From IMG/VR virus record IMGVR_UViG_3300025121_000090, positions 1 through 39,028 of that record: 39,028 nt of DNA; one strand, given 5' to 3'. Origin of the DNA: a virus. The position numbers were made by a program, and so were the translations under genes. Below, one piece after another: positions 3,522 through 29,570 of the stretch (position 1 is its first letter; every line of letters begins with the position of its first letter). The notes beneath the pieces were generated by a model. The model worked only from the letters and a program-made list of their open reading frames with translations, was not told the origin of the DNA and ran no database searches.

Positions 3522-3525
3522 AATT

Positions 3526-4427: not shown

Positions 4428-4430
4428 ATT

Positions 4431-4845: not shown

Positions 4846-4846
4846 G

Positions 4847-5421: not shown

Positions 5422-5452
5422 ATGGACTAACTACTAAAATAAATCTAAAATC

Positions 5453-5725: not shown

Positions 5726-5736
5726 CTATAAGGAAA

Positions 5737-5880: not shown

Positions 5881-5891
5881 TTTCTTAAATC

Positions 5892-6230
5892 ATGACAGAA
5901 AAATCGCTATTCGACGAAGTATCTGAAGTCATTGAGAAAGCTCCGCACTTCGGGTATTTCAATACAACTAATTTGCATAATCCTGAACTTAAAGAGTGCA
6001 AACTGAAAGCTAAGAGTCAGACTGAGGCGGTGCTAAAGTTCTTCCAAAGGCATGAAGGAACTAACTTCAACGCATGGGAAACGTGGAAATACATGAAGCT
6101 CAGAAACGTGCCTATAACTTCTATAAGGCGTGCAATTACCTGCTTAATTGATGCCGGGAAGCTGGTTGAAACTGGGAATCTGAGAATCGGGAATTATGGA
6201 AGGAAATGTAGATGTTACAGACTGGCATGA
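5892..6230 (+). CDS. Winged-helix-like DNA-binding protein
   Basis: 112 residues. The region from residue 42 to the end reads as helix (TEAVLKFFQRHEG), turn and helix (NAWETWKYMKL), then PITSIRRAITCLIDAGKLVETGN and a basic wing (RIGNYGRKCRCYRLA). This matches small winged-helix proteins often seen before replication genes. The stop overlaps the methyltransferase start. Confidence 0.6.
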   Translation: MTEKSLFDEVSEVIEKAPHFGYFNTTNLHNPELKECKLKAKSQTEAVLKFFQRHEGTNFNAWETWKYMKLRNVPITSIRRAITCLIDAGKLVETGNLRIGNYGRKCRCYRLA

Positions 6231-7012: not shown

Positions 7013-7043
7013 TGATTTATTTTTTTATTCCAAATTAAAGGTT

Positions 7044-7190
7044 TACATTTGAAACTTAAAGCAGCGACATGAAAGAAAATTCTGAAATTTACATAGCCGG
7101 TCACGGTTACAACGTCCACGAAAAGGCTCTTGCGTCGCTGCTTTCCTTTAGTGGATTTGTTGTTTCCGTACCGGCTTAATTTTTACTGAT
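7044..7190 (+). promoter_or_regulatory. Structured leader with interleaved stems and 36-codon frame (copy 1)
   Basis: TACATTTG (7044-7051) is a good -7 box, though the -33 region is weak. Stem A pairs AAAGCAGCGAC (7058-7068) with GTCGCTGCTTT (7134-7144), 11 perfect bp. Stem B pairs AGCCGGT (7095-7101) and ACGG (7103-7106) with CCGT (7166-7169) and ACCGGCT (7170-7176), 11 bp around one bulged C. The order A-B-A'-B' is that of a pseudoknot. A 36-codon frame starts with the ATG at 7069, directly after stem strand A, and stops at 7179, right after B'. The next gene starts at 7191. The frame may be a leader peptide or incidental. Confidence 0.6.
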
Positions 7191-7358
7191 ATGAACCAGG
7201 AATCAATTAGGAAAAGAATTGTATCCTTATCAAAGGAACTCGCAGAGTCTACTGATTACAACCAGATTAAAAAGCTCAGAAGAATAATCGCATCTTTAAA
7301 GGGATCATATAAATCATCTGATCCCAAAAGTATATCTGATTTAATGACCGGGAAATGA
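7191..7358 (+). CDS. Small basic protein, 55 aa
   Basis: 55 residues with a helical, Lys/Arg/Ser-rich sequence (IRKRIVSLSKELAES, IKKLRRIIASLKGS) resembling a small helical hairpin. The stop overlaps the initiator start by ATGA, so it is coupled to the replication gene. It sits directly downstream of the structured leader at 7044-7190. Confidence 0.55.
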   Translation: MNQESIRKRIVSLSKELAESTDYNQIKKLRRIIASLKGSYKSSDPKSISDLMTGK

Positions 7359-8041: not shown

Positions 8042-8571
8042 GTAGCAATTCAGAAAACTATATAACCGATTTTGTTAGGGATATACCATCAGTATACCTA
8101 AAAGAGATCATTGAGCTTACAATGAAAAACTGTTCATTGAATATGGGTACTCATTATACGGATGAAATATTGGACAGGACTATTGAAATAATAAAAGAGA
8201 ACTTTTCATATATGACTGTCAATCTTGTAGTATCAGCATTATACAGGGGGTCAATGGGTAATTTTGGTGCAGGGAGGTTAATTCCTAAAACTATTTCACA
8301 ATGGTTAAGGGAGGTATCTCAGGAATATATGAAAGAACGAGATCATAAAGAAATAGAAGAAAGACTTAAAAATACTGGAAATCCTATTGATTTACGTAAA
8401 TATCCAATGGGTACGGCTCTTAATCTTAAAATAGAATGGTTATTATCAGGATGTATTAACAGTGATGATTGGGATACAATATCATTGAAAGAACTTGCAG
8501 AAATGATTGGTAATAAACAGAGTCCTCAGTTACATCATTTTCTTTTAACCGACAGGCGTAAAAATAAATAG
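8038..8571 (+). CDS. Replication-module protein of unknown family
   Basis: 177 residues. The segment MTVNLVVSALYRGSMGNFG, then IPKTISQWLREVSQEYMKE, has the pattern often seen in Bacteroidota phage and mobile-element replication genes (helix, GxxGxFG-like turn, then a Trp-containing helix). Its position after the DnaD-like initiator suggests a helicase-loader or accessory function, but no Walker motif is present, so it is not a DnaC-type ATPase. It overlaps the initiator stop by 4 nt. Confidence 0.55.
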   Translation: MSSNSENYITDFVRDIPSVYLKEIIELTMKNCSLNMGTHYTDEILDRTIEIIKENFSYMTVNLVVSALYRGSMGNFGAGRLIPKTISQWLREVSQEYMKERDHKEIEERLKNTGNPIDLRKYPMGTALNLKIEWLLSGCINSDDWDTISLKELAEMIGNKQSPQLHHFLLTDRRKNK

Positions 8572-8573
8572 CT

Positions 8574-8939
8574 ATGAATATAACAGTACATACAATTACA
8601 GCAGAGGTAGCTTCTTACTACAGTATAAAGGTAGATGAAATTTACTCTATGCGGAAATTTTACAAAAACATAAAGTATAAGCATATTGTTATTTACTTTA
8701 TTAGAAATATCCTTAAGATGTCACTTTCGGCAATAGGTCAGGAGTTTCCCGGTAAAAAAGGTTACTTAGATCATGCGACAATTAGTCATTCTTTAAGGTC
8801 GGTAAGTAATCAGATTGACACTAATCCGATTTACCGGGAAGAAGTTAATAATATCCGCAAAAGGCTTGAATCGCTTATTAAAGATACTCGGAAAATTGAT
8901 GAGGAGGTGTACCAGGAAAATGACTTTTACTTAAACTAA
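8574..8939 (+). CDS. DnaA domain IV-like DNA-binding protein
   Basis: 121 residues. It has the profile of the DnaA C-terminal DNA-binding domain: SIKVDEIYSMRK (the basic-loop position), KHIVIYFIRNILKMSLSAIGQEFPGKKGY, then DHATISHSLRSV, which corresponds to the DnaA signature DH(S/A)TV.HA. No AAA+ domain is present, so it is a stand-alone domain IV. It may recognise DnaA-box-like sites at the phage or host origin, or compete with host DnaA. Operon position: 2 nt after the previous gene. Confidence 0.72.
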   Translation: MNITVHTITAEVASYYSIKVDEIYSMRKFYKNIKYKHIVIYFIRNILKMSLSAIGQEFPGKKGYLDHATISHSLRSVSNQIDTNPIYREEVNNIRKRLESLIKDTRKIDEEVYQENDFYLN

Positions 8940-8944
8940 CCGAT

Positions 8945-9112
8945 ATGGATACTTTAATTGTAGTACTTTTGATTTTTAGCCTGATATTATCAGCAGTGAT
9001 ATGTACCTTTCTGTGGCTTCTGGGGCGTGGCAAAGAATGGAAGCTCAGGAATGATGCGATATTTGAAAGAGAATTAAGGGCGAGAATTAATATTGAAAAA
9101 CAGGACAAATGA
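8945..9112 (+). CDS. Small membrane protein, 55 aa
   Basis: 55 residues with one strong N-terminal membrane helix (TLIVVLLIFSLILSAVICTFLW, quoted here as residues 3-24 in outline: 3-10 TLIVVLLI, 11-24 hydrophobic) followed by a basic, charged cytoplasmic helix (GKEWKLRNDAIFERELRAR). The stop overlaps the next start by ATGA. Function unknown. Confidence 0.55.
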   Translation: MDTLIVVLLIFSLILSAVICTFLWLLGRGKEWKLRNDAIFERELRARINIEKQDK

Positions 9113-9501
9113 AAGCAAATGATTTCCGCCTCGGTAATTTAGTTTATTATCGCATTGAAGATCCGATGGATGAACGTAAGGAATGGGATGAAATAAATCC
9201 TATTGATTATGATGATATTCGTTGTTTTGTTCAATATGAAGATAATTCAGAATACAGACCAATTCCCCTTACAGAAGAATTGTTGTTAAAGCTTCATTCA
9301 GATGAAGAAATAGAGAAAAGTGGAAGGTTCCCAAATGAAATAACTATTTATGATCGCTTCTTATTCATCTGGAAAGAAAATTATAAATACTGGTATGTAA
9401 TAACGAGTAACCATAAAGAATATCTCACAAAAATTGAATTTGTGCATGAATATCAGAACTTTATATTTGCTTTAACCGGAAATGAATTAACAATCAAATA
9501 A
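9109..9501 (+). CDS. Accessory protein, paralogue of 19967-20353
   Basis: 130 residues. The N-terminal DFRLGNLV, the middle IPLTEE and C-terminal FVHEYQNFIFALTGNEL match the protein at 19967-20353 (ELRIGNIV, VPLTEL, YVHQLQNLYFALTGNEL). I recall the VHxLQNLYFALTGxEL ending as widespread in Bacteroidota phages and prophages, without a known function. This copy starts the run of small accessory genes between the replication and packaging modules. Confidence 0.6.
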   Translation: MKANDFRLGNLVYYRIEDPMDERKEWDEINPIDYDDIRCFVQYEDNSEYRPIPLTEELLLKLHSDEEIEKSGRFPNEITIYDRFLFIWKENYKYWYVITSNHKEYLTKIEFVHEYQNFIFALTGNELTIK

Positions 9502-9507
9502 ACAGCC

Positions 9508-9897
9508 ATGAAAGAAGAAGATAAAAATAAAGTAATTGAATTTTTCAAAAATGAAGTCGTATTGGGCTTTTGTGGCAAAGATTACTTTGAAAGAATTGAA
9601 TGGTATTTCAACATATTTTTCAGTCCCCCTGCCACAGACAAGCCTACTGATGAAGACTTAGAATCATTAATGACACATGATAAAGAAACTATTGCAAAAT
9701 GGTATCTTGACTTAGTTAAGAGAAGTAAGGCTGTGACGGATGAACAAATTGAAAAAGCCGCAAAAGAATTATTTGAATCTCACATGGCTTTAAAGGACGA
9801 ATCCCCTACAAGCTATACTCACAAAACACTTTGTTTACATGAGGCGCAAGGATTTAGAGCAGGCGCAAAGGCACTCAGAGACAATAAAATAAAATAG
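9508..9897 (+). CDS. Hypothetical protein, 129 aa
   Basis: 129 residues, acidic and helical. The C-terminal third carries VTDEQIEKAAKELFE and, further on, GFRAGAKALRDNK. The 12080-12586 protein has the same arrangement (LTDEYIEKEAE, then GCKWARD), so the two share a C-terminal module common in phage accessory proteins. No catalytic motif seen. It is 6 nt after the previous gene. Confidence 0.55.
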   Translation: MKEEDKNKVIEFFKNEVVLGFCGKDYFERIEWYFNIFFSPPATDKPTDEDLESLMTHDKETIAKWYLDLVKRSKAVTDEQIEKAAKELFESHMALKDESPTSYTHKTLCLHEAQGFRAGAKALRDNKIK

Positions 9898-9903
9898 AAA
9901 AGA

Positions 9904-10188
9904 ATGAAACTCGTTGCCGAAGATAAAGAATTTAAGTTTAAAGGGATTTGTCCTTATTGTAAAGGTGATCTTACTTATCGGTGCAATGGTCATGAGCAAC
10001 AAGAAGATGGCACATGGACTGCTGATTCGTTTGATATTGAGTGTTCAACCGAACCGGATATGGAATCAGAGGAATGGGAGGAATGGATGAACCAACACTC
10101 TGACATGCCTTATGTAAATCAATTGCCAGTTGATGAAGCAGTAAAAAAATGGATTAATGAAAGATACAGATTTGATGTTAAAGTTTAA
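9904..10188 (+). CDS. Small Cys-containing protein with zinc-knuckle-like motif
   Basis: 94 residues. ICPYCKGDLTYRC near the N-terminus is a zinc-ribbon-like CxxC followed by another Cys, and a fourth Cys lies in DIECSTEP. The rest is very acidic (EPDMESEEWEEWMNQHSD) with a helical end (VDEAVKKWINERYR). No family recognised. Confidence 0.55.
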   Translation: MKLVAEDKEFKFKGICPYCKGDLTYRCNGHEQQEDGTWTADSFDIECSTEPDMESEEWEEWMNQHSDMPYVNQLPVDEAVKKWINERYRFDVKV

Positions 10189-10203
10189 TCACTAACAAAT
10201 AGA
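10185..10203 (+). repeat. 19-nt direct repeat, first copy
   Basis: TTAATCACTAACAAATAGA is repeated exactly at 10408-10426, 223 nt later. In this copy it includes a stop codon and the spacer before the next gene. In the second copy the same bases encode the last residues of the 10210-10425 gene. A local duplication or recombination is likely. Confidence 0.6.
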
Positions 10204-10209
10204 AAGAAG

Positions 10210-10425
10210 ATGAAAATAGAAAAAAGAAGAAATAATTCTACTTTATCATACATTGATTGTTGTATGAGACTAACCGGAGATCAACCATTTTCAGAGATGT
10301 CAAATGATGATCTTGATTCGATTTATGCTATTACCTTTGATCGTTGGGCTCATCATTTGACAAGACAGGGATATATAGATGCCTTAAATAAAAAGCGTAC
10401 TGAATTGTTAATCACTAACAAATAG
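10210..10425 (+). CDS. Hypothetical protein, 71 aa
   Basis: 71 residues with a basic N-terminus (MKIEKRRNN) and several aromatic residues in the middle (DSIYAITFDRWAHHLTRQGY). The C-terminus (LLITNK) is encoded by the second copy of a 19-nt direct repeat, so it may have been added by the duplication. No family recognised. Confidence 0.5.
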   Translation: MKIEKRRNNSTLSYIDCCMRLTGDQPFSEMSNDDLDSIYAITFDRWAHHLTRQGYIDALNKKRTELLITNK

Positions 10426-10426
10426 A
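10408..10426 (+). repeat. 19-nt direct repeat, second copy
   Basis: Exact copy of 10185-10203. It ends 2 nt before the next gene's start region and overlaps the 3' end of the 10210 gene. Confidence 0.6.
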
Positions 10427-10428
10427 CT

Positions 10429-10713
10429 ATGAAAACAGTAAACGGTAATATTATTATGGAAGTCAATATGAATATTAGGTTATTCATAACAAAAGAAGAA
10501 GCTAAGGCTTTACAGGGAATTGTCGGATATGGTGCTGACGCTTTCTTAGAAGTATTTCATCCTAAACTTGGTAAGGCATATTTGAAAGATCATGAAACAG
10601 CAATGAGAAGTCTTTTTCATAAATTACATACTGAATTACCTATCGAAGTTGCTAAGATTGAAAAAGCTGAAAAGCAGATTAATGAAACTATTGATTTATT
10701 TAAATCCAAATAG
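10429..10713 (+). CDS. Hypothetical helical protein, 94 aa
   Basis: 94 residues, mainly helical with Lys/Glu-rich ends (EVAKIEKAEKQINETIDLFKSK). An in-frame ATG at residue 10 is an alternative start. It starts 3 nt after the previous stop. No motif seen. Confidence 0.5.
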   Translation: MKTVNGNIIMEVNMNIRLFITKEEAKALQGIVGYGADAFLEVFHPKLGKAYLKDHETAMRSLFHKLHTELPIEVAKIEKAEKQINETIDLFKSK

Positions 10714-10717
10714 GACT

Positions 10718-10981
10718 ATGAAAGACGAAGAATTATATTACAAACAGGTATTTATCCGCAGTGAATCGGATTTACCAGAAGTAAAGGACAATTATGTTAT
10801 AAAAGAAAAATTAAGAGCATATCCTACAAATTATACTTTTGATCCTTTAAGTGATTATGATAAAAAAACACTATTATCAATAGCTGACTGGTACTTACAG
10901 CCTATTCCTCAGCCAGAGTTAAGAAGGGAGAGGGTTATTGAAAGGGCAATAAGGCGATGGTTAAAAGGAAGTTTGGAATAA
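10718..10981 (+). CDS. Hypothetical protein, 87 aa
   Basis: 87 residues from the ATG at 10718, 4 nt after the previous stop. Upstream in-frame starts overlap the preceding gene and are unlikely. The C-terminus is strongly basic (ELRRERVIERAIRRWLKGS), and the middle has the aromatic pattern DWYLQPIPQPE. Function unknown. Confidence 0.5.
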   Translation: MKDEELYYKQVFIRSESDLPEVKDNYVIKEKLRAYPTNYTFDPLSDYDKKTLLSIADWYLQPIPQPELRRERVIERAIRRWLKGSLE

Positions 10982-11022
10982 TTGTGTTGCCAACATGAGA
11001 GTAACCAATAATACTAACTAAC

Positions 11023-11232
11023 ATGAAAAAAACAAATCAACAGCCGGTAATCCCAAGAGGATATGAATTTACAGGATGGGCAACATTTAATTGGGGCATT
11101 TGTCATCAAAAAGTTTACAGGACAAGAAAAGAAGCAATAGCAGCCTGTGTGGATACCGGGAATAATGGATCAACATGGGATAGTGTAAAAAGTCATTTCA
11201 GAGTTGTTAAAGTAAGATGTATTGTTGAGTAA
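11023..11232 (+). CDS. Hypothetical protein, 69 aa
   Basis: 69 residues, basic. It contains several Trp and Gly residues (GYEFTGWATFNWG) and a central helix (RKEAIAACVDTGNNG), suggesting a small alpha/beta fold of the kind used to fill phage accessory regions. No family recognised. Confidence 0.5.
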   Translation: MKKTNQQPVIPRGYEFTGWATFNWGICHQKVYRTRKEAIAACVDTGNNGSTWDSVKSHFRVVKVRCIVE

Positions 11233-11247
11233 CCAATAAACAGAGAT

Positions 11248-11502
11248 ATGGATGATTTAATATTGAAAAATATATCTGAAGAGATTGAAAAAAAGTATGA
11301 TTGTAAAGTAATGTCAATCTGCTATGCTGAATTATTGAGTCTTTGTGTAAGGGTTAAGATTCAATATAATGAAGATTTTCTTTATAAGCCATTTAAAGAA
11401 ATGCCCACGCCCGACACAATTATATTTTCTGAAAGATCAGTAACATTTACAAGGCGAGTCGATTTATTCGAATGCGTTAAAAAAGATTGTCACTTAAATT
11501 AA
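11248..11502 (+). CDS. Hypothetical protein, 84 aa
   Basis: 84 residues, alpha/beta pattern with four Cys (positions 19, 25, 32 and 80) but no CxxC pair. It lies 15 nt after the previous gene. No recognised motif. Confidence 0.5.
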   Translation: MDDLILKNISEEIEKKYDCKVMSICYAELLSLCVRVKIQYNEDFLYKPFKEMPTPDTIIFSERSVTFTRRVDLFECVKKDCHLN

Positions 11503-11519
11503 CAACTAAACCTACAACC

Positions 11520-11786
11520 ATGGAAATAATACACGAAACAAAGTATCTGCTTTTTAAAGATACACTTAAACTGGGAAGAAAAACTAAGATCATATCAATC
11601 ATCAATAAATCTTCACTGGACGAGATTGGCACAATCGAATGGTACGGAGCATGGAGACAATATTGTTTTATGCCTGAGAGATTTGAGTTCAATACGGTAT
11701 GGAATAACACATGCCTTACTGATGTGATATTTGTCATCAATAAATTGATGAAAGAAAGAGAAGTTAAGAAACCAAAAGGAGAATAA
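11520..11786 (+). CDS. Hypothetical protein, 88 aa
   Basis: 88 residues from the ATG at 11520, 17 nt after the previous stop. An upstream start at 11487 would overlap the preceding gene. Predicted beta-rich (YLLFKDTLKLGRKTKIISI, IGTIEWYGAWRQYCFMPE) with a C-terminal basic helix. Small proteins with the IGTIxWYGxWRQYxF pattern are common in Bacteroidota phages. I know no function. Confidence 0.55.
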   Translation: MEIIHETKYLLFKDTLKLGRKTKIISIINKSSLDEIGTIEWYGAWRQYCFMPERFEFNTVWNNTCLTDVIFVINKLMKEREVKKPKGE

Positions 11787-11797
11787 AGCCAACAACT

Positions 11798-12067
11798 ATG
11801 AAAACAGGAATTGAATTAATCGCAATTGAGCGACAGGAGCAAATTGAAAAACATGGTTTCGATAAAGATCATGACGAAGAAATGATTAATGGAGAATTAA
11901 TAGACGCAGCCGTCTATTTATTAACCGGAGAAATTAACTATCTTCCTAAATCTTGGGATGAAAAATGGCATTTAAAATTCAGAAGCAAATTCAGTAATGA
12001 AATAGAATCTCTTAAAGTTGCAGGAGCATTAATTGCTGCTGAAATTGACCGCATACAAACGTACTAA
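11798..12067 (+). CDS. Conserved phage protein, ERQEQIEKHG family
   Basis: 89 residues. The N-terminus (IELIAIERQEQIEKHGFD) and C-terminus (LKVAGALIAAEIDRI) carry the conserved ends of a small helical phage protein family that is widespread in Bacteroidota and is sometimes annotated as a nucleotide diphosphohydrolase relative. The all-helical pattern with E-rich helix 1 is compatible with a MazG/dUTPase-like fold, but the metal-binding ExxE motif is not clear. Role inferred, not shown. Confidence 0.55.
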   Translation: MKTGIELIAIERQEQIEKHGFDKDHDEEMINGELIDAAVYLLTGEINYLPKSWDEKWHLKFRSKFSNEIESLKVAGALIAAEIDRIQTY

Positions 12068-12079
12068 ACCAACATAGCA

Positions 12080-12586
12080 ATGGAAAGAGATAAACTGATT
12101 ATTGAAAAGAATAAAAAGCATGAGGAGCTAATTGAATGGCTTGAAACGGAATGTCAATCACCAGAGACAGCTGATTTATCTCATTCATTTGCTGAAAATT
12201 TGATGATAAAACTGGCTGAAATAAGTTATATTGAGAATGAACTATCCGCCTTAGAAAAGGAAGCGCCGGAAGTCTATGCCAGCCAGAGATCAGAGCTGAC
12301 AGATGAGTACATTGAGAAAGAGGCAGAAATTGAAATACCACTAAGCAGTTCATCTACCTTAAATGTGCAAAGAATGAGATGGATTCAAGGCTGTAAGTGG
12401 GCAAGGGACAGACAGAAGGGATATTCGGGAGAGTTTATCGAGTGGATCGCATTTGACGGACTTGAAATGTTTCCCATGACTGGCAAAGACGGAGATGGTA
12501 AAATTAGGTGGTTTGATTTACAAGATGGTGAAAACCCACTAGAAGATGTTTATGGATACTGGTTAACTGAAATAAAAGACAAATGA
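12080..12586 (+). CDS. Hypothetical protein sharing a C-terminal module with 9508-9897
   Basis: 168 residues. The N-terminal 70 form a coiled-coil-like helical region (KLIIEKNKKHEELIEWLETE). The central motif LTDEYIEKEAEI and RWIQGCKWARD match the end of the 9508 protein. The C-terminal part is Trp/Gly-rich (EFIEWIAFDGLEMFP, KIRWFDLQDGE). It is coupled to the next gene by an ATGA overlap. Confidence 0.5.
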   Translation: MERDKLIIEKNKKHEELIEWLETECQSPETADLSHSFAENLMIKLAEISYIENELSALEKEAPEVYASQRSELTDEYIEKEAEIEIPLSSSSTLNVQRMRWIQGCKWARDRQKGYSGEFIEWIAFDGLEMFPMTGKDGDGKIRWFDLQDGENPLEDVYGYWLTEIKDK

Positions 12587-12783
12587 ACTACCATGTAAAC
12601 AACTTCGGCAAAGCGAGTTTTAAGATTAAGAAAAAAGGCCAGACAATAACCGGCTTTAATGGTTATGGACGGATAAAAGATATAGATGCTAAATGTGTAC
12701 TATTTCAGGATAATGAAGGCTTTGAGTTTATTGTCCGAAAGTCAGAGTTTAATTTCGAGGTTGAGGAGTTCAAAGTAAAATGA
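12583..12783 (+). CDS. Small beta-rich protein, 66 aa
   Basis: 66 residues, basic, predicted all-beta (FGKASFKIKKKGQTITGF, CVLFQDNEGFEFIVRKSEF). It is the last gene of the accessory run. A consensus promoter for the packaging region starts 8 nt after its stop. Confidence 0.55.
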   Translation: MNYHVNNFGKASFKIKKKGQTITGFNGYGRIKDIDAKCVLFQDNEGFEFIVRKSEFNFEVEEFKVK

Positions 12784-12790
12784 AATTAAT

Positions 12791-12822
12791 TTTGTTTGTT
12801 AATTTTGAATAGTTTAACTTTG
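12791..12822 (+). promoter_or_regulatory. Bacteroidota-type promoter of the packaging region
   Basis: TTTG (12791-12794, with a second TTTG at 12795), 20 nt, TAACTTTG (12815-12822). It matches the consensus with ideal spacing. The transcript would start with the 13-nt motif shared with 428-440 and run through the hairpin at 12855-12889 into the ParB remnant, HNH gene and terminase genes. Confidence 0.75.
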
Positions 12823-12854
12823 GTTTTTCATAGGTGGACTTGAATTAGGTAGAG

Positions 12855-12909
12855 AGCGGGGTCGATGACAGAAAATTTCCGACTCCGCTTTTTTAAAATG
12901 AATAAATGA
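12855..12909 (+). promoter_or_regulatory. Leader hairpin abutting a 14-codon frame (terminator-like)
   Basis: AGCGGGGTCG (12855-12864) pairs with CGACTCCGCT (12880-12889), 10 bp with one G-U pair, followed by a short T run (12889-12894). An ATG at 12865 starts exactly after the 5' strand. Its 14-codon frame ends at 12909 and overlaps the ATG at 12906 of the ParB remnant (ATGA). The hairpin can act as an intrinsic terminator about 60 nt from the promoter, so this may be an attenuator or a short RNA. Confidence 0.6.
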
Positions 12910-12998
12910 AGTTATCTCAAATTCATATTAATCCTGCAAATCCCCGTATCATATTGCAAAGAATGTCAAAGAGAATATTTTATGGCACGAATAAAATA
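12906..12998 (+). pseudogene. ParB-domain gene remnant cut off by HNH insertion
   Basis: 30 codons. The first 15 residues, MKLSQIHINPANPRI, are the start of a phage ParB/Srx-type domain (the NPxNPR signature), of the kind usually encoded just before the small terminase in Bacteroidota phages. After RII the sequence loses all resemblance and ends within the start of the HNH gene. The rest of the ParB domain is not found downstream. I infer that the HNH gene inserted here and the remainder of the ParB gene was lost. Confidence 0.6.
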
Positions 12999-13575
12999 TA
13001 ATTGTTTGAATTGTGGAAAAAAGTTTTATTCCAATCATGGATGTAAGAGCAGATTGCCTAAATATTGTTGTCATGATTGTTATGTCAAACAATTAACCGG
13101 AACCAAACAGACAAAGGAATCAAGATCAAAACGAAGTAAAGTATTAACAGGAAAACACAGGAGTGAAGAACAAAAATTAAGAATGTCAAAAGCACAATTA
13201 AGATTGGTACAGGAAGGGAAACATCATTGGAGTAAGGGTGGAATAACGCCAATATCACAAGCAATAAGATCATCACAGAAATATAACGATTGGAGGTTAT
13301 CTGTTTTTAAAAGGGATAATTTTATATGCTGTGAATGTAGACTTTCTAAACCGCATGAATTTGAGGTACATCATAAAAAGGCATTATCAATATTAATTGA
13401 TGAGGCAAAAGAAACATTTCCAAGTTTAAAAATATTTGATGCAGCATTGATTTATAGTCCTATTTGGGATATTAATAACGGTGTTACTTTATGTAAAGAC
13501 TGTCATAAAGAAATAACTTTAAAAGAAAACCTATTTAATAAAAATAATAAGAGATGTCTCGTCCCCGTGCAATAA
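12982..13575 (+). CDS. HNH homing endonuclease with zinc knuckle and NUMOD3-like motif
   Basis: 197 residues. N-terminal zinc knuckle (CLNCGKKF then YCCHDC), a NUMOD3-like DNA-binding motif (TGKHRSEEQKLRMSKAQ), then the HNH core: FKRDNFICCECRLSK, EVHHKKALS, and NNGVTLCKDCHKE. All expected catalytic and metal residues (HH, N, CxxC pairs) appear intact, so the nuclease may be active. It begins inside the ParB remnant. Its last 7 codons overlap the start of the small terminase gene in another frame (13554-13575). Homing endonucleases of this kind spread by cutting alleles that lack them. Confidence 0.85.
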   Translation: MARIKYNCLNCGKKFYSNHGCKSRLPKYCCHDCYVKQLTGTKQTKESRSKRSKVLTGKHRSEEQKLRMSKAQLRLVQEGKHHWSKGGITPISQAIRSSQKYNDWRLSVFKRDNFICCECRLSKPHEFEVHHKKALSILIDEAKETFPSLKIFDAALIYSPIWDINNGVTLCKDCHKEITLKENLFNKNNKRCLVPVQ

Positions 13576-13934
13576 TAGACTGGAATAAGGTTGATAAATA
13601 TCTGCAAGCTCAATGTAACGGGACTGGTATTGCTGGTCTTTTAGGTATTGCGCCAATTACACTTTACAGGGCTTGTGAGGAAAAATATAAAGTCAATTTT
13701 GAAGCCTATTCCGCACAAAAGAAAGGAGAGGGCAAGGAGTTGCTTAGAGGCAAGCAGTATCAGGTCGCAATGGAGGGCGATAAGACAATGCTTGTATGGC
13801 TCGGTAAACAATATCTTGAGCAGAAGGATAAAAATGACATTACAACAAATGATCAGAACTTAAATACTTCAATTCTGATTGAACTTATTGACAGTTCAGA
13901 TAAAGTAGAACATGAAGATACAAGTAGCAAGTAA
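13554..13934 (+). CDS. terS: Terminase small subunit
   Basis: 126 residues. The N-terminal helical DNA-binding part (WNKVDKYLQAQCNGTGIAGLLGI, then APITLYRACEEKY) is an HTH as in phage small terminases. A helix with GKELLRGKQYQVAMEGDKTMLVWLGKQYL follows, the typical 'GNxxMLxWLGKQ' pattern, and then a disordered acidic tail. It binds the packaging site and recruits the large subunit. It overlaps the HNH gene upstream and terL downstream by 23 nt. Confidence 0.82.
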   Translation: MSRPRAIIDWNKVDKYLQAQCNGTGIAGLLGIAPITLYRACEEKYKVNFEAYSAQKKGEGKELLRGKQYQVAMEGDKTMLVWLGKQYLEQKDKNDITTNDQNLNTSILIELIDSSDKVEHEDTSSK

Positions 13935-15897
13935 GGTTTATAAAGGACTTATTAAGGGACTTGCTGAAAGTAAAACGATTCTTTCTCTTCAAGGTTCATC
14001 CCGATCAGGGAAAACGGTTAATATCTTAATATTTCTGATTACATATATTCTTGAACACAATAACACCCGGCTATCTATTGTCCGTAAAACATTACCGGCG
14101 CTTAAAGGATCAGTCCTGATTGACTTCAAAGAGATTCTTTTTAAGATGGATATTTGGAATGATAAACAGTTCAATAAAACAGAACTGATTTATAAATTTA
14201 ATAATGGCTCTTGGGTCGAGTTCTTTTCAACTGATGATGAACAGAAGATCAGAGGTCGTAAACGTGGAATCTTATTTGCCAATGAAGCGAATGAATTAAG
14301 TTACCTGGAATGGCAGCAGCTTATAATGAGAACCACACTCTTTGCTGTTTTGGATTACAACCCTTCATTTTCAGAAGATCATTGGATTGAATCAGTAAAT
14401 AAAGACCCGGACTGTTATCATTTTATTTCAACCTATAATGATAATCCATTTCTGGAGCAGAAAATTATTGATGATATTGAGAAGTTACAAGGTAAGAATA
14501 AATCTCTTTGGACTGTTTACGGATTAGGACTCCGGGCTGTTATCGAAGGGCGGATTTTTGATGATTATGAGATTGTGGAAGGAATACCGGAACATATCCG
14601 CAAGCGATGGGTAGGTATGGACTTCGGTTACACAAATGATCCTACTGCAATTTTGAACGTGGCAATAGATGGTGAGGATTTATATATGGATGAAATTTGT
14701 TACCGAACTAAAATGTTGACAAATGATATTATTAAAGTCTTAAAATCAGAATGTCAAAATAAAAAGATTATTTCTGAAAGTGCAGACCCCAGACTAATAG
14801 ATGAGATACATAATGCAGGGTTAAATATCCATGCGGTTGAAAAGTTTCAGGGATCAATCAATGCCGGGCTGGCAAAGATGAAAGAGTATAATCTCAAAAT
14901 CACCAAGAGGTCGACTAATATTAAGAAGGAAATAGATAATTACGTTTATGATCAGGATAAGGAAGGTAGATATCTTAACCAGCCAGTTGATGAGTTTAAT
15001 CACTGTTTTGTTTCAGATACTAAAATAATTACGAAAGAAGGAATAAAAAATATTTGTGATATAAAAACATCTGATGATGTTTTAACTTCGGAAGGATTTA
15101 GTCGGGTTATAAAATTATATCATAATGGATTAAAACAAGTTAATAACTATTCGATACAATTCGATATGTTTTCATTATCTTTGCATTGTACAGAAGATCA
15201 TTTAATTAAAACAACGCAAGGATGGGAACAGATTTCACAATTAGAATCGGGGATGCAGGTATTCCTGAGCAAACATTTAATGGGAAAACATACAGACTTT
15301 ATCCAAGAGAACGATACTTTTCAAGAGGAACAAAACGGATGCATGTCGCAGTCTGGGAATTTTATAATGGCAAAGTTCCTAAGGGGTTTACTGTTCATCA
15401 TAAAAACGAAAATACATGGGATAATCAACCCGAAAATATTGAAATTAAAGAAAAGCATCAGCATTTGTCAGAACATGGGAAGTCGCGGTTTTCGCGAGAC
15501 AAAGAATGGTTTGATAAATTTCATAATGCGGGTATTGAAAAAGCAAAAGAATGGCATGGTTCAAAAGAAGGAAGAGAATGGCACTCAGAACATAGTAAAG
15601 AAGGATGGAAGGATAAAGGACAAAAAACGCTTATCTGTCAATTTTGCGGAAGAGAATATCAAACAAGACATTCAGGAATATCAAAATACTGTCATCCAAA
15701 CTGTAAAGCAAAAGCATTGCGTAAAAGGCGAAAAGATGCAGGTATTCGATATCCACGTCGAAGGAGTGCATGAATATTTCGCAAATGGCATATTAGTACA
15801 TAACAGTATTGACGCAGGGCGTTATGTGATTCTAGAAGAGGTTATCGGACATAATCGTAAAAAAACAAACCTTTCAAGCCTGTTAGGAAAAATTTAA
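13912..15897 (+). CDS. terL: Terminase large subunit with intein
   Basis: 661 residues including a 267-residue intein, leaving a 394-residue mature protein. ATPase: Walker A GSSRSGKT (28-35) and Walker B-like LFANEAN (121-127). RNase H-like nuclease: GMDFGYTNDPT (D237), ADPR (D292), and the third Asp in SIDAGRY after the intein. The protein cuts and pumps phage DNA into the prohead through the portal encoded next. The intein sits between FNH and SIDAGRY, within the conserved nuclease motif, so packaging enzyme activity should depend on splicing. The start at 13912 overlaps terS. Confidence 0.9.
   Translation: MKIQVASKVYKGLIKGLAESKTILSLQGSSRSGKTVNILIFLITYILEHNNTRLSIVRKTLPALKGSVLIDFKEILFKMDIWNDKQFNKTELIYKFNNGSWVEFFSTDDEQKIRGRKRGILFANEANELSYLEWQQLIMRTTLFAVLDYNPSFSEDHWIESVNKDPDCYHFISTYNDNPFLEQKIIDDIEKLQGKNKSLWTVYGLGLRAVIEGRIFDDYEIVEGIPEHIRKRWVGMDFGYTNDPTAILNVAIDGEDLYMDEICYRTKMLTNDIIKVLKSECQNKKIISESADPRLIDEIHNAGLNIHAVEKFQGSINAGLAKMKEYNLKITKRSTNIKKEIDNYVYDQDKEGRYLNQPVDEFNHCFVSDTKIITKEGIKNICDIKTSDDVLTSEGFSRVIKLYHNGLKQVNNYSIQFDMFSLSLHCTEDHLIKTTQGWEQISQLESGMQVFLSKHLMGKHTDFIQENDTFQEEQNGCMSQSGNFIMAKFLRGLLFIIKTKIHGIINPKILKLKKSISICQNMGSRGFRETKNGLINFIMRVLKKQKNGMVQKKEENGTQNIVKKDGRIKDKKRLSVNFAEENIKQDIQEYQNTVIQTVKQKHCVKGEKMQVFDIHVEGVHEYFANGILVHNSIDAGRYVILEEVIGHNRKKTNLSSLLGKI
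15004..15804 (+). mobile_element. Intein in terL (Cys1 ... His-Asn, Ser+1)
   Basis: 267 codons, terL residues 365-631. Block A: CFVSDTKIIT, with Cys1. Block B: TEDHLIKT (TxxH, 427-430). Block F: VFDIHVEGVHEYFANGI. Block G: LVHN followed by Ser. All residues for class 1 splicing are present. The region between blocks B and F shows no endonuclease in the terL frame. It is Lys/Gln/Asn-rich and looks like a non-native translation, because the same DNA encodes an HNH protein in another frame. Confidence 0.88.
15222..15773 (+). CDS. HNH endonuclease nested in the intein in an alternative frame
   Basis: 183 residues in frame 3, whereas terL is in frame 1. It is a complete HNH protein of a family often free-standing in Bacteroidota phages: GKTYRLYPRERYFSRGTKRM, then HVAVWEFYNGKVPKGFTVHH (the first His pair), N(x)DNQPENIE, a WHGSKEGREWHSEHSKEGW linker, and a C-terminal zinc knuckle (CQFC then YCHPNC). 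It probably begins at the ATG at 15222 (AAGG lies just upstream) and its last codons overlap intein block F. It is presumably made by internal initiation and would act as the homing nuclease for the intein. Confidence 0.8.
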   Translation: MGTDFTIRIGDAGIPEQTFNGKTYRLYPRERYFSRGTKRMHVAVWEFYNGKVPKGFTVHHKNENTWDNQPENIEIKEKHQHLSEHGKSRFSRDKEWFDKFHNAGIEKAKEWHGSKEGREWHSEHSKEGWKDKGQKTLICQFCGREYQTRHSGISKYCHPNCKAKALRKRRKDAGIRYPRRRSA

Positions 15898-15917
15898 ATA
15901 ACTTTACACAAAAAGAT

Positions 15918-17372
15918 ATGGCAGCACTTGACGTAATTAAATCACAGGACTTTAAAGCGATTGATAAGCTATTCACCCGCCAGGTTGATACCGGGGTTCA
16001 GGCAGATGCTATTAAACAGTACAATGTCGATACTCATGATGTCTTTGATAAGGCTATCCGGCCAATGCGTAAGATCAAAATTGATTCAGGCACAAAAGAC
16101 TCTGCAGGTAATGTTAACTGGACCGATAAGTGGATAGATGTTGTGAGAGTCGGCATTCCCTGGCAGAACATAATCACAGAACGCCGGGTCGGGTTCACAC
16201 TTTCGCATCCTGTTAAAACAAATGTAATATGGGATACTGAAAGCGAAAAAGAAAAACAGCTTGTTAAGTTGGTAGAGAGGATCCAGAACGACAATAAAAT
16301 GGATTACAAGAATAAAGAGATCCTGCGCCGGAAGTTGTCTGAGCTGGAAGTCGCTGTTATTTGGTATTATGTTGAAACGAATGATCCAAAATACAAGTTT
16401 ACACTAAACAGCAAGATTGTCTCCCCGGAACTTGGTGACACTCTTTACCCACTGTTTGACAGTAACGGAACGATGATATCATTTCGCAGGGATTATAAGT
16501 TATCCGAGAACGGCAAAGATATTGAGCATTCGGATATTTACACTGCTGAATTTACTTACAAGTACATCAAAAAAGATGGCCAGTGGACACTTGATCCTGA
16601 TGCAATTGGCAAATCAGTGGAGACAGGCGACTATATCCCCGCTAATCCGGTCCCGAATCCCGCAAAGAAGATTCTAGTTGAATACTACAATCAGAAAAAA
16701 CCGGTATGGCATAACGTGCAGTCAATGATTGACCGTCACGAAACATTGACTTCGAATCACGGCGGGATGAACGATAAGTTCGGGGCGCCTATCTTCACCG
16801 TGGCCGGTGAAATCCAGGGCGAGATAATTGACAACGCTCAGGGGTCAGTTATGCAACTCGAGAACGGGGCAACGGCCGGTTACGCTAATTTAGCCTCAGA
16901 GCCGCAGTCGATAAGCCTGGAGCAGACGAATCTTGAAAAGTTCATTCATGCAATGTCGCAGACTCCGAACATATCATTTGACCAAATGATGACAATAGGC
17001 CAGATGTCAGGATTTGCAGCAGAAATGATTTTCTCAGATCCGCATATGGCAGTTCGCATGGAAGAGGAAACGTTCGGGATAGGACTTCAAAGGCGGTTAA
17101 ATATCATCAAGGCGGCCATAGGAGCTCTAATCGACACTTCGCTGGCAAGTGAATGCAGGACAGTTCAATTGAAGCCTGAGGTTACACCTTACCTTCCAAT
17201 GAACACAACGGAAATTATTGATAATTTATCGGTAGCTGTCACAGGAGGGATAATGTCAAAAGAAACAGCAATAGAAAAGAATCCTTTGGTTAAAGATTCA
17301 AAAGTAGAGATGGAGCGTATGAAAGCAGATGCCACGGCGGAGCTTTCCGGGTCAGAAAATGATAATTTGTAA
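15918..17372 (+). CDS. Phage portal protein
   Basis: 484 residues, right size for a siphovirus portal (SPP1/HK97-type fold). Features seen: a long N-terminal region followed by the segment DVVRVGIPWQNIITERRVGF, the central stretch GEIIDNAQGSVMQLENGATA, and the portal-typical end of core with LEKFIHAMSQTPNISFDQM. The C-terminus is acidic (DATAELSGSENDN). It forms the dodecameric ring through which DNA enters. It directly follows terL with a 20-nt spacer. Confidence 0.8.
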   Translation: MAALDVIKSQDFKAIDKLFTRQVDTGVQADAIKQYNVDTHDVFDKAIRPMRKIKIDSGTKDSAGNVNWTDKWIDVVRVGIPWQNIITERRVGFTLSHPVKTNVIWDTESEKEKQLVKLVERIQNDNKMDYKNKEILRRKLSELEVAVIWYYVETNDPKYKFTLNSKIVSPELGDTLYPLFDSNGTMISFRRDYKLSENGKDIEHSDIYTAEFTYKYIKKDGQWTLDPDAIGKSVETGDYIPANPVPNPAKKILVEYYNQKKPVWHNVQSMIDRHETLTSNHGGMNDKFGAPIFTVAGEIQGEIIDNAQGSVMQLENGATAGYANLASEPQSISLEQTNLEKFIHAMSQTPNISFDQMMTIGQMSGFAAEMIFSDPHMAVRMEEETFGIGLQRRLNIIKAAIGALIDTSLASECRTVQLKPEVTPYLPMNTTEIIDNLSVAVTGGIMSKETAIEKNPLVKDSKVEMERMKADATAELSGSENDNL

Positions 17373-17434
17373 TTAATTGATATTATTAAACTTAGTCAAA
17401 AACCTCCAGCCTATCGGAGACAAGCTAAAAACCT

Positions 17435-18415
17435 ATGGCAGAAGTACTTTTTTTAACTATTGAAAATGGAGATACTTGCAGTTTTTATCGCTCAGCAGGA
17501 GTCTTAAAAGACCTTCGCAGGAAAACAAAACACAACATTACACTGGTACAGATGAACCAGGCCCCGATGAACTGGTCATTCTTGACTCAGTTCGATCTCA
17601 TTTACCATCAGAGGGCATTTTCAAAGGAGTCGCTTAATGTTTGCGGTTATGCTAAACAGTGCGGTGTAAAAATCTGGTTGGACTATGATGATAACCTTTT
17701 TGCTCTTAATCCTGAGAATCCGACTTATGCACTTTATAACAACCCTGAGACTCAGGGTAATATAAAAGCAATGCTGCAGCTGGCAGATGTTGTAAGTGTG
17801 CCAACGGAATACCTCAGGCAGGCATACAGCGATTTTAACAAGAATATTCATATTGTCCCGAACGCTTTAAATGACTTGCTATTCAAACGTCCCGAATTAC
17901 CAAAGCGGACAAATCATATTGTCTGGCGTGGTCCTGAGGCGCATATCTTTGACCTGATGTCATTCAGCAAGCAGATTAATGAAGCTACTAAAGAGTTCCC
18001 GGAATGGAGATTCATGTTTTGCGGGTTTTCGCCCTGGTTCCTGACTGAAACAGATAACAAAGGACACGTCCCGTCATTGGATATTGCCATGTACATGAAA
18101 ACTCTCTTTGATATGGCCCCGTCCTGTCTTCATGTTCCACTTCATGACAATCTATTTAACAGGGCAAAAAGCAATATCGCATATATTGAGGCGACTTACT
18201 TCGGGGCCGTGTGTGTTGCTCCTGCATGGTGGAACGCTCCCGGATCATTGCCTTATACTGACGGCCCTTCTTATTACGAAGCGATCAGGTCAGTTCTTTC
18301 AGGCGAAGCAGATAAAACTAAATTGACAAAAGAGGCGTGGGAGTATGTTTGCGATTGCTTGCTTTTATCGAAGGTGAATGATTTGAGAGTTGATATAATA
18401 AATTCTTTGCTTTAG
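17435..18415 (+). CDS. Glycosyltransferase, GT4-like
   Basis: 326 residues. N-terminal Rossmann-like half (VLFLTIENGDTCSFYRSAGVL, DLIYHQRAF) with IWLDYDDNLF, then SVPTEYLRQAYSD and IHIVPNALND, the pattern of GT4/GT-B enzymes at the acceptor/donor boundary. A C-terminal nucleotide-sugar half includes AYIEATYFGAVCVAP. Predicted soluble, using an NDP-sugar. It opens the sugar island and is separated from the portal gene by a 62-nt spacer with no obvious terminator. Confidence 0.72.
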   Translation: MAEVLFLTIENGDTCSFYRSAGVLKDLRRKTKHNITLVQMNQAPMNWSFLTQFDLIYHQRAFSKESLNVCGYAKQCGVKIWLDYDDNLFALNPENPTYALYNNPETQGNIKAMLQLADVVSVPTEYLRQAYSDFNKNIHIVPNALNDLLFKRPELPKRTNHIVWRGPEAHIFDLMSFSKQINEATKEFPEWRFMFCGFSPWFLTETDNKGHVPSLDIAMYMKTLFDMAPSCLHVPLHDNLFNRAKSNIAYIEATYFGAVCVAPAWWNAPGSLPYTDGPSYYEAIRSVLSGEADKTKLTKEAWEYVCDCLLLSKVNDLRVDIINSLL

Positions 18416-18564
18416 TTGTTTATTCAAAAAAATGTGTAAATTTGTTACGGCTATTAACTACACTATGCAATCAAAAACAGTAACAGCCCCAAAAACAAAA
18501 GCAATTATCCCCTCGGGTGTAGTTGATAGCCCTTTTGTTTGCGGGGCTTTTAATAACTGACAAG
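18416..18564 (+). promoter_or_regulatory. Structured leader with interleaved stems and 31-codon frame (copy 2, clearest)
   Basis: TTG (18416-18418), 18 nt, TAAATTTG (18437-18444). Stem A pairs GGCTATTAACTACAC (18449-18463) with GTGTAGTTGATAGCC (18517-18531): 15 bp, one G-U. Stem B pairs AGCCCC (18485-18490) with GGGGCT (18543-18548), and AAACAAAAG (18493-18501) with CTTTTGTTT (18532-18540): 15 bp around a 2x2 internal loop. The strands A' and B' abut with no gap, which would allow coaxial stacking in a pseudoknot. The ATG at 18465 follows strand A by 1 nt. Its frame ends at 18560, 4 nt before the next gene. Confidence 0.7.
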
Positions 18565-18759
18565 ATGGAAGAAGTAATTAAAATTTTGGGCGTAATTGCT
18601 TTAATAATTGGAATTGGACTTCTTTTGGCATTTCCAGTAATGTGGCTTTGGAATTGGCTTATGCCAACAATATTTGGATTAATGAAACTAACTTTTTGGC
18701 AGAGTTTAGGAATTAATCTTTTATGTGGATTTTTATTTAGGTCAACTAATTGGAAATAG
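18565..18759 (+). CDS. Small membrane protein, 64 aa
   Basis: 64 residues from the ATG at 18565, with a long hydrophobic stretch (ILGVIALIIGIGLLLAFPVM) and a second hydrophobic, Trp-rich segment (LWNWLMPTIFGLMKL), so probably two membrane helices. It sits right after the leader of copy 2 and is followed directly by a GT2 gene. Possibly a membrane anchor for the sugar enzymes or an unrelated cargo gene. Confidence 0.55.
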   Translation: MEEVIKILGVIALIIGIGLLLAFPVMWLWNWLMPTIFGLMKLTFWQSLGINLLCGFLFRSTNWK

Positions 18760-18760
18760 T

Positions 18761-19348
18761 ATGAAGTTTAGCGTGATTATGGCATCCCTGCTTTCCGACT
18801 ACCCGGGATCAGCGACCGGCAAAGATAAAAAACTCATCCGGGCTGTGGAATCAGTTTTAAAGCAGTCATACGAAAACTTTGAGTTAATCATAGTGGCTGA
18901 TGGATGCCCTTTAACTGAATTTGTAGTTAAGCACAATTTCACCGATAAGCGGATTAATCTTTTAAGAGTCGAACGTAAAGAGCTATGGTCGAATACACCC
19001 CGGAACGCCGGTATTGAGGCCGCAAAAGGTAAGTATATTATCTATATTGACAATGACGATAAGTATGGCCCGGATCATTTACGGAAAATCAATGATCAGA
19101 TGGATAATACTGAGAACTGGCTGTATTTTAACGACTTCAGATGGTCAGGCACTGAGTTCATTGAGCGGCAAATTGACGTTTCTTTGTACGGTCATTGCGG
19201 AACCTCGAATATCTGCCATGCTTCACGCCTTAAGTTGAAATGGGAAAAGGCCGGATATGGTCACGATTATCAGTTCATCCAGCAACTACGGAAGTTTGAA
19301 GGTAAGAAGATTGAAACACCGGAATATTTTGTTTGTCATGAAGTGTAA
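18761..19348 (+). CDS. GT2-family glycosyltransferase
   Basis: 195 residues from the ATG at 18761, 1 nt after the previous stop. GT-A fold landmarks: VIMASLLSDYPGS, AVESVLKQSYENFELIIVAD, TPRNAGIEAAKGKYIIYIDNDD, with the DxD-type metal motif in IDNDD. The end is shorter than usual for GT2 (no C-terminal membrane part), so this is a soluble transferase that uses a nucleotide sugar. Ends overlapping the next gene by 11 nt. Confidence 0.75.
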   Translation: MKFSVIMASLLSDYPGSATGKDKKLIRAVESVLKQSYENFELIIVADGCPLTEFVVKHNFTDKRINLLRVERKELWSNTPRNAGIEAAKGKYIIYIDNDDKYGPDHLRKINDQMDNTENWLYFNDFRWSGTEFIERQIDVSLYGHCGTSNICHASRLKLKWEKAGYGHDYQFIQQLRKFEGKKIETPEYFVCHEV

Positions 19349-19970
19349 GGCATTTATCATTGTGTACAATCGCTTGCAACTGCCCGTAAAAATTGCGGAT
19401 TGGCTTTGGGAGATAAATGTTGATCCTATTTTTGTCGATAACAATTCTGATTACCCGCCATTATTAGAATACTACAAAACAACTCCTTATCAGATTATCC
19501 GCATGCCTCAGAATTACGGTTACAAGGTAGTCTGGGAACAGAACCTTTTGGAGAAGCTCGGAATAACAGGTAATTACATTGTCACCGATCCTGACTTGGA
19601 CTTAACAGGCATTCCGGATGACTTTCTGAGTGTTTTGGAGGAAGGATTAAATCGTTACCCTCAATTTGATAAATGCGGGTTTTCACTTGAAATAAAAGAC
19701 CTTCCAAAAACACCTTTTTGTCCTCTTGACTGGGAAATACAATTCTGGCAGAATCCACTTGATGGCAGGTATTATGACGCACCTGTCGATACCACGTTTG
19801 CATTATACAAAGTACCTTTTCATTCAACTAAAGGGATAAGGACTAACAGGCCATATACCTGTCGCCATATGCCGTGGTATTACTTTAAATTTGAAGATAT
19901 GCCAGCGGATGAGCAGTATTACTTCAAAACTTGTCGGGAATCACATAGTATGGGAGGAATATTCAGATGA
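19338..19970 (+). CDS. Glycosyltransferase-like protein
   Basis: 210 residues from the ATG at 19338, which overlaps the GT2 stop by 11 nt. An upstream ATG at 19257 lies deep in the GT2 gene and is less likely. N-terminal alpha/beta pattern typical of GT-A enzymes (AFIIVYNRLQLPVKIADWL, PIFVDNNSDYPPLLEYY, NYIVTDPDLDLTGI). The DPDLD cluster could be the metal-binding DxD. The substrate cannot be told. Confidence 0.6.
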   Translation: MKCKAFIIVYNRLQLPVKIADWLWEINVDPIFVDNNSDYPPLLEYYKTTPYQIIRMPQNYGYKVVWEQNLLEKLGITGNYIVTDPDLDLTGIPDDFLSVLEEGLNRYPQFDKCGFSLEIKDLPKTPFCPLDWEIQFWQNPLDGRYYDAPVDTTFALYKVPFHSTKGIRTNRPYTCRHMPWYYFKFEDMPADEQYYFKTCRESHSMGGIFR

Positions 19971-20353
19971 AAATACAGGAATTAAGAATCGGGAATATAG
20001 TAGAGCTTCTAATTGCAGGAGGGGGAAAGTTCCCTAATGAGATAAGGCCTATAAAAGCCAGTGAATTTTATGCGCTTTCTGAACATCCAGGTTGGGCAAT
20101 TCCTGTCCCATTAACCGAGTTGTGGTTAGAAAAATTCGGATTTAAAAGCATTGGACTTAATGGTCAGGTATTTGAACATAAAGAGGGCATAGGGTGGGAG
20201 GGGGATGACAGATTTGTAATAGAAACGGATTGCAAACTCTTTTACCCTAAGTTTAATTTTGATGATTGTTGCTGGACTGAATTTAAATATGTCCATCAGC
20301 TTCAGAACCTTTACTTTGCTTTAACCGGAAACGAATTAGAAATGGAATCATGA
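19967..20353 (+). CDS. Accessory protein, paralogue of 9109-9501
   Basis: 128 residues, sharing ELRIGNIV, a central VPLTEL and YVHQLQNLYFALTGNELE with the 9109 protein. It lies inside the sugar island between two glycosyltransferases, with ATGA overlaps on both sides, so it travels with the island. The family's function is unknown. It may not be a sugar enzyme at all. Confidence 0.6.
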   Translation: MKIQELRIGNIVELLIAGGGKFPNEIRPIKASEFYALSEHPGWAIPVPLTELWLEKFGFKSIGLNGQVFEHKEGIGWEGDDRFVIETDCKLFYPKFNFDDCCWTEFKYVHQLQNLYFALTGNELEMES

Positions 20354-24507: not shown

Positions 24508-24650
24508 TTTGCAGTTGATTTGATTATTTTATATATTTGTAATGCGATTCAGTTATGAAAAACAAAAAGTCCCATATCAGTTACATTGCCAAATTGTGTA
24601 ATATTACACGACTGGATCGCCTCTGTAATTGGTATGGGCAATTTTTATGA
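24508..24650 (+). promoter_or_regulatory. Structured leader with interleaved stems and 31-codon frame (copy 3)
   Basis: TTTG (24508-24511), 20 nt, TATATTTG (24532-24539): a consensus promoter. Stem A pairs GCGATTCAGTT (24544-24554) with GACTGGATCGC (24610-24620), 11 bp, two G-U. Stem B pairs CCCATATCAGTTAC (24571-24584) with GTAATTGGTATGGG (24625-24638), 14 bp, two G-U. Order A-B-A'-B'. A perfect palindrome GTGTAATATTACAC (24596-24609) forms a small hairpin between B and A'. The ATG at 24555 directly follows strand A. Its 31-codon frame ends at 24650 and overlaps the HNH start (ATGA). A T run follows B'. Confidence 0.65.
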
Positions 24651-29415: not shown

Positions 29416-29570
29416 TATCTTTGGTATTCTAAAAGTACAACATGAAGAAATTATTTAATTTTAAAATTGCCCCATTAACGGGGAATTGTCCAGAAGGTTC
29501 GGTTGTACTTACCTCTGGCTTTTTCTTTTTAGTGGGGCTTAATTTTTTTATATATGAAAGTACAAATTAA
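29416..29570 (+). promoter_or_regulatory. Structured leader with interleaved stems and 42-codon frame (copy 4)
   Basis: TATCTTTG (29416-29423) is a -7 box without a clear -33. Stem A pairs AAGTACAAC (29433-29441) with GTTGTACTT (29502-29510), 9 perfect bp. Stem B pairs GCCCCATTAA (29469-29478) with TTAGTGGGGC (29529-29538), 10 bp with one G-U. Order A-B-A'-B'. The ATG at 29442 directly follows strand A. Its 42-codon frame ends at 29570 and overlaps the ParB start (29554). A T7 run follows B'. Confidence 0.6.

Follow-up and report, generated by a model that had tools for sequence, protein, structure and literature searches.

Several gene sets of a Bacteroidota virus are preceded by leaders in which two stems are interleaved and which are traversed by a short open reading frame (ORF), and translation of this leader ORF probably decides whether the genes behind it are switched on. 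The pairing of strand A with A′ and of strand B with B′, the T-run and the ORF layout are established by sequence comparison; for transcription start, termination, translation and coupling in the leaders we infer the course of events described below. On balance, and with modest confidence, each leader is taken to be a self-antisense attenuator coupling leader-ORF translation to operon expression. The stretch of DNA analysed, referred to as the window, is the complete IMG/VR virus record IMGVR_UViG_3300025121_000090 of 39,028 bases, the portal protein of which is about 28–31% identical to the portals of Porphyromonas, Riemerella and Bacteroides phages; two relatives of the window are contained in Bacteroidetes genome bins. 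To our knowledge, the Bacteroidota are a phylum without Shine-Dalgarno sequences, in which little is known about phage gene control. If the reading is true, RNA control of the c4/P4 type would no longer be confined to a single immunity operon but would reach the ordinary operons of a group of phages.

The leader at 18437 displays the strand order A-B-A′-B′. Its −7 promoter element TAAATTTG (18437..18444, plus strand as for all window features given here) is followed by strand A (18449..18463), the putative transcript 5′ end and 5′UTR of the leader ORF, by strand B (18485..18501), the 5′ arm of a terminator-like hairpin, by strand A′ (18517..18531), which is antisense to A and lies within the loop of hairpin B-B′, and by the G-rich 3′ arm B′ (18532..18548), which is joined directly to A′ and succeeded by a short T-run (TTT, 18549..18551). 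A and A′ form 15 bp, B and B′ two helices round a 2x2 loop. The stem positions, the preceding promoter and the adjoining strands A′ and B′ are all as given in a preliminary description of the sequence, as is the position of the ATG at 18465 one nucleotide behind strand A, which ends at 18463. From this ATG the leader ORF (18465..18560; 31 codons, MQSKTVTAPKTKAIIPSGVVDSPFVCGAFNN) extends to a stop 4 nt 5′ of the main ATG. The main gene (18565..18759) encodes a 64-aa membrane protein of PHROG 705 / 2169, moron category, and is replaced by a different gene in most relatives. Strand A starts 4 nt after the promoter G in the 18437 and 24532 leaders and in several relatives. According to the F. johnsoniae study (PMC6847099), the last G of this promoter element is located at −5; with this spacing A would start at +1, and at 18437 the transcript thus probably begins at 18449 with the first nucleotide of A.

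The preliminary description had the same plan recur at 7044, 24508 and 29416, of which the copies at 7044 and 24532 hold up, while the one at 29416 is weaker, its A stem being ordinary. In the second leader (7044..7179; TACATTTG at 7044-7051) the strands A, B, A′ and B′ occupy 7058-7068, 7095-7113, 7134-7144 and 7159-7176, and a leader ORF of 36 codons (7069-7179) precedes the main ATG at 7191; the next gene encodes a replication-initiation-like protein. The third leader (24532..24650; TATATTTG at 24532-24539; A 24544-24553, B 24571-24585, A′ 24611-24620, B′ 24624-24638) carries a leader ORF (24555-24650) which overlaps the main ATG of an HNH-like gene (24647) as ATGA, and in the fourth (29416..29570; TATCTTTG at 29416-29423; A 29433-29441, B 29469-29478, A′ 29502-29510, B′ 29529-29538), which has the weakest A stem of the four, the leader ORF (29442-29570) overlaps the start of a ParB-like gene (29554). 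The start of the latter gene (ATGAAAGTACAA, 29554-29565) repeats part of the strand A of its leader (AAAGTACAAC; P 0.017, one of 21 tests). Further copies proposed at 1118 and 12791 were rejected: the A+B scores at 1140 and at 12787/12800/12815 (−19.7 to −28.8) are not above background, the 5th percentile of which is −30.05.

Each A′ of the window pairs with its own A at energies of −9.6 to −22.4, versus −1.2 to −6.3 with the A strands of the other leaders; no cross-talk among the four leaders is seen by this measure and, since each A′ fits its own A only, they would act separately. The common shape of leaders that belong to different operons of one genome would also be expected if it were read by an antitermination or RNA-binding protein of the phage. 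Such a recognition element is regarded as very improbable, as no sequence element shared among the unalignable leaders was seen and each pair is sequence-specific to itself.

The A/A′ duplex of the 18437 leader (−26.2 kcal/mol) belongs to the best 0.06% among 12,963 sampled plus-strand positions; in the same sampling the A stem alone places 7044 in the best 1.3%, 24532 in the best 2.7% and 29416 in the best 16%, which is not notable. With the A and B scores summed, the four leaders rank within the best 0.014% (18437), 0.07% (24532), 0.30% (29416) and 0.41% (7044) of 7,056 background positions. A strict descriptor (≤ −30) applied to the window and its relatives matched 9 of 765 TAnnTTTG sites; for six decoy motifs, with 3,973 sites in total, it gave 6 matches, among them a real leader reached one base off. 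The 18437 leader itself is missed by it. In seven cultured phage genomes this descriptor did not discriminate (2/452 versus 10/2,417 decoys, two of the ten being leaders of Riemerella phage RAP44 one base off). Descriptor matches in the cultured phages Porphyromonas 005b, Bacteroides Versailles (first 50 kb), Flavobacterium 11b, Bacteroides B124-14 and PJN03 were chance-like. A laxer descriptor matched 17 of 765 TAnnTTTG sites versus 46 of 3,973 decoys and 15 of 2,295 dinucleotide shuffles, and thus discriminated poorly. A DNA pattern for the B core matched five contigs, all from records already in the set. As the descriptor tests are mixed or weak, the case rests on conservation more than on rarity.

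Relatives (labelled L007, L008 and so forth) were gathered with the portal protein, the glycosyltransferase and further anchors. L007, L008, L009, L011-L017, L020 and L021 carry the leader plan between the 326-aa gene and the glycosyltransferase gene d2; no leader directly precedes d2 in L010, L019, L081 and L083, and L018 could not be judged. The leader stays ahead of d2 while the intervening gene, a small membrane protein in the window, is exchanged for unrelated small proteins (L007, L008, L011, L013, L014, L015) or is absent altogether (L009, L016, L017). The slot after window position 18415 and its counterparts in L008, L014, L016 and L020 hold differing genes, some of them zinc-finger-like or GIY-YIG/HNH homing-type-like by eye.

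That pairing is kept between copies with unrelated stem sequences had been taken as covariation in the preliminary description. Between copies which cannot be aligned this is not covariation in the strict sense, so homologues were needed for a strict test, and that test was positive. In nine alignable homologues 131 of 138 cells of the A stem and 111 of 112 cells of the B stem are paired; each stem has four pairs that have changed on both sides, and none of 1,000 column shuffles matched the observed pairing and covariation (eight sequences). The alignment was fitted by hand with bulged bases omitted, and excludes L012, identical to L011 by eye, as well as the unalignable L009, L015 and L020. 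Instead of the decay of both stems that would have spoken against a functional RNA, compensatory changes are thus seen in both. The ParB-like gene leaders (29416, L030 and L031) likewise differ in sequence and keep the plan. Judged by these homologues, the interleaved leader is a genuine RNA architecture which covaries and is placed at a promoter, strand A having an ATG beside it; this supports the functional RNA structure originally proposed. Because the layout and not the sequence is conserved, the sequence-specific, interchangeable pairs should lend themselves to reporter assays and be readily located elsewhere.

Among the 22 tabulated leaders, 16, including all four window copies, have a leader ORF which opens with an ATG at or close to A, traverses the stems and reaches its stop between −17 and +12 nt relative to the main ATG. 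Only one of the 32 other frames of these 16 leaders (in L030) has a stop in this range. The 22 leaders were curated by hand and comprise 19 of 26 descriptor hits plus L009, L015 and L020; the seven hits dropped are one window copy and six judged to be chance. As one slot contributes nine homologous leaders to the 16, the independent cases number about eight. The feature fails in L015, L020, L021+6565, L021+19763, where the frame is open but without ATG, L034 and L042, the table entry of which has a wrong main start and is not counted; L011 and L017 differ in that their ATG is found where A begins and not behind it. A conserved leader peptide was rejected, as the peptide drifts and frames slip between relatives (L007, L013). 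Since the peptides differ in this way, the act of translation rather than its product seems to matter. Stops of leader genes cluster 10–11 bp ahead of structural genes, Bacteroidetes included, according to PMC4833913.

The 3′ arm B′ ends G-rich and is followed by T residues, resembling an intrinsic terminator, and B-B′ is a candidate for such a terminator. Across 25 leaders (20 from the window group and five from Riemerella phages, L008 and L020 being excluded), the mean content of the 8 nt 3′ of B′ is 5.48 T and 2.24 A, compared to 2.11 T and 4.25 A at −14..−7 of 53 other gene starts of the window; some T-runs are short, such as the TTT at 18437. The gap between A′ and B′ is 0 nt in 13 of the 25 leaders and up to 31 nt in the others. 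In 12 of the 25 the energy of a nested fold lies below the sum for the two stems, two figures which are not strictly comparable, and for those leaders the full pseudoknot is therefore not demonstrated. 

Two further explanations are affected by these features. In a purely translational switch lacking termination, likened to RepY/RepZ, the folded leader would hide the start of the leader ORF and crowd the main start, and leader-ORF translation would open both. The leader ORF indeed overlaps or abuts the main start and B′ ends 8–17 nt ahead of the main ATG in most leaders, yet the stretch behind B′, rich in T and poor in A, differs from what is seen at other window gene starts and fits the need of a terminator, and the switch is considered unlikely. 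A structure which protects the 5′ end or blocks exonucleases, stabilising the mRNA, would agree with A beginning at the putative 5′ end, but would leave the T-run, the leader ORF and the position of its stop unexplained and is hardly probable.

Among the possible roles listed at the outset, that of an attenuator and translational switch acting on the mini-ORF and the gene behind it is plausible from stem rarity, covariation, ORF layout and T-run. In the self-antisense attenuator favoured here, RNA polymerase would begin at or near the first nucleotide of A, where ribosomes would bind to translate the leader ORF; with about 30–40 codons, this ORF would cross B, A′ and B′ up to the main start codon. 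B-B′ would form a G-rich hairpin followed by U residues and able to end transcription, with A′ inside the hairpin and antisense to A. If no ribosome has been loaded when A′ emerges, A′ would pair with A, the leader ORF would be closed and B-B′ would terminate. A ribosome following the polymerase would hold A′, B and B′ apart, so that transcription continues, and on finishing beside the main start codon might re-initiate there. In attenuation of the pyrBI type a leader ORF crosses the terminator, so that the following ribosome prevents termination. The window leaders likewise have a leader ORF running through a terminator-like hairpin to the structural gene, with hairpin and U-run located within the leader; unlike in pyrBI, the loop of their terminator contains the antisense of the ORF start. 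Repression of Rho-independent terminators by translating ribosomes is described in PMC4824070.

The closest kin of the window leaders are the c4-type phage RNAs (RF01695 C4 and RF02944 c4-2, clan CL00128; P1 c4-icd-ant). Both are leader RNAs ahead of an operon with a stem enclosing an antisense segment, to which a complementary copy lies upstream in the same transcript; c4-a1b1 is mentioned beside the c4 antisense RNA in PMC2864571. A small ORF linked to the main gene is a further shared feature, icd being "apparently required for ant expression" according to PMC8201110. On this reading the window leaders work like c4-type antisense combined with leader-ORF attenuation. Unlike c4, they precede several non-antirepressor operons (membrane moron, replication initiation, HNH and ParB-like genes), each with its own sequence and without a downstream target: for A′ against the main start, P is 0.10 (18437), 0.28 (7044), 1.0 (24532) and 0.017 (29416, one of 21), so that such pairing is not supported as the mechanism of the window copies, with 29416 as a weak exception. 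Among 21 non-Riemerella leaders P falls below 0.05 in four (L042, L021+6565, 29416 and L021+19763), and L042 (P 0.003) and L021+6565 (P 0.007) show a partial form of the correspondence of A, A′ and main start found in Riemerella phages.

In the window no Rfam family matched at the gathering threshold, no member of the c4 clan at E ≤ 5 and neither RF02944 nor RF01695 at E ≤ 10. As the Rfam models failed, a downstream target is lacking and the genes are not antirepressors, the window leaders are not filed as c4. A metabolite riboswitch with pseudoknot is not supported, there being no Rfam match and, by eye, no conserved core among the four window copies, L009, L015 and L020. A literature search of partial coverage found no description of these leaders. 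The preliminary statement that they are not a known motif thus stands as far as Rfam matches of the window are concerned, but the same layout occurs in the leader of Flavobacterium phage 6H, which is Rfam c4-2, and hence the leader class borders on a known one.

In Riemerella phage RAP44 two such leaders are located ahead of antirepressor operons, and 19 records match one of them. Seven of these records and RAP44 together fall into five sequence types, and from type to type A, A′ and the start of the main gene (for example TGTTAATCCAAG, TGTTCAAACAAG, TGTACAATCAAG) change jointly. Riemerella A′ pairs with its own main start at −16.1 to −18.4 kcal/mol and with those of other types at −3.2 to −9.0; the target at the main start is found in four types (P ≤ 0.003) and, by eye, in the fifth (L090). 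The arrangement at these loci (L085:13712-13900, plus strand; L085:30567-30400, minus strand; L087-L093), which belong to cultured phages, is c4/P4-like and has no match in Rfam. On the minus strand upstream of the leader, L087, L090 and L091 contain a subthreshold match to the Rfam DUF3800-VIII RNA (34.8 bits, gathering 40.2). In P4 immunity (CI RNA, seqA/seqB/seqC) the antisense segment pairs with upstream seqA and downstream seqC, leading to premature termination (PMC4825925); Riemerella A, A′ and main start correspond to this arrangement. Unlike P4, the window leaders carry the upstream copy only. In the IsrK-orf45-anrP locus of prophage Gifsy-1, as described in the same paper (PMC4825925), a short RNA ends at an intrinsic terminator and the read-through mRNA carries a small ORF whose translation is coupled to that of the gene following it. 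In that locus the small ORF is located downstream of the terminator and the short RNA has an activating role, whereas the window ORF begins in the leader and runs through.

With these precedents of P4 and IsrK (PMC4825925), the joint changes in the five Riemerella types upstream of the RAP44 antirepressor operons and the c4-2 match of the 6H leader, the terminated leader could be conceived as a trans-acting antisense RNA of c4 or P4 CI type, which would silence the same operon of a sister phage or of a superinfecting one. For the window this appears quite unlikely, as the main starts behind its leaders offer A′ no convincing target (P = 0.10 at 18437) and A′ is already paired to A in cis. Self-antisense attenuation and action in trans may also be combined: a c4-like immunity RNA would have been made a general operon leader in Bacteroidota phages, with an orthogonal 5′-end/antisense pair for each of several operons of one genome. 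Terminated leaders would, in addition, act in trans on transcripts of sister phages or copies, and every operon would thereby sense the supply of ribosomes and the number of its own copies. This extension is tentative and rather doubtful.

Phages of Flavobacterium psychrophilum (12 records, six of them examined) show the same leader layout. Their main start shares just 7 nt with A, in two versions (GACTAAA and GCAAAAA), and the energies of A′ with the main start (−6.0, −5.3 and −6.0) are no better than those of cross pairs (to −7.3); own and foreign energies being inseparable, triple covariation is firm only for the Riemerella phages. The 6H leader (L102:7809-7887, minus strand), ahead of the tape-measure gene, matches Rfam c4-2 (RF02944) with 49.4 bits at a gathering threshold of 41 and was the sole match in a search of 16 records; phage 1H, which has the same leader sequence, also matches RF02944. 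The homologous leaders of 2A and FPSV-D15 and the five Riemerella leaders do not match RF02944 (E 5). Another strong A-B-A′-B′ arrangement is present in a distant relative (L099:661-500, minus strand).

Outside the leaders, a piece of a DNA methylase gene (window 6230-6602) has 76–78% DNA identity to a record named Staphylococcus phage PG-2021_1 and to that of an uncultured 636-kb phage, the only megablast hits for window 1-20000. The terminase large subunit (window 13912-15897) harbors an intein-like insertion at residues 393-631 (Pfam Intein_splicing, below the Pfam cut-off).
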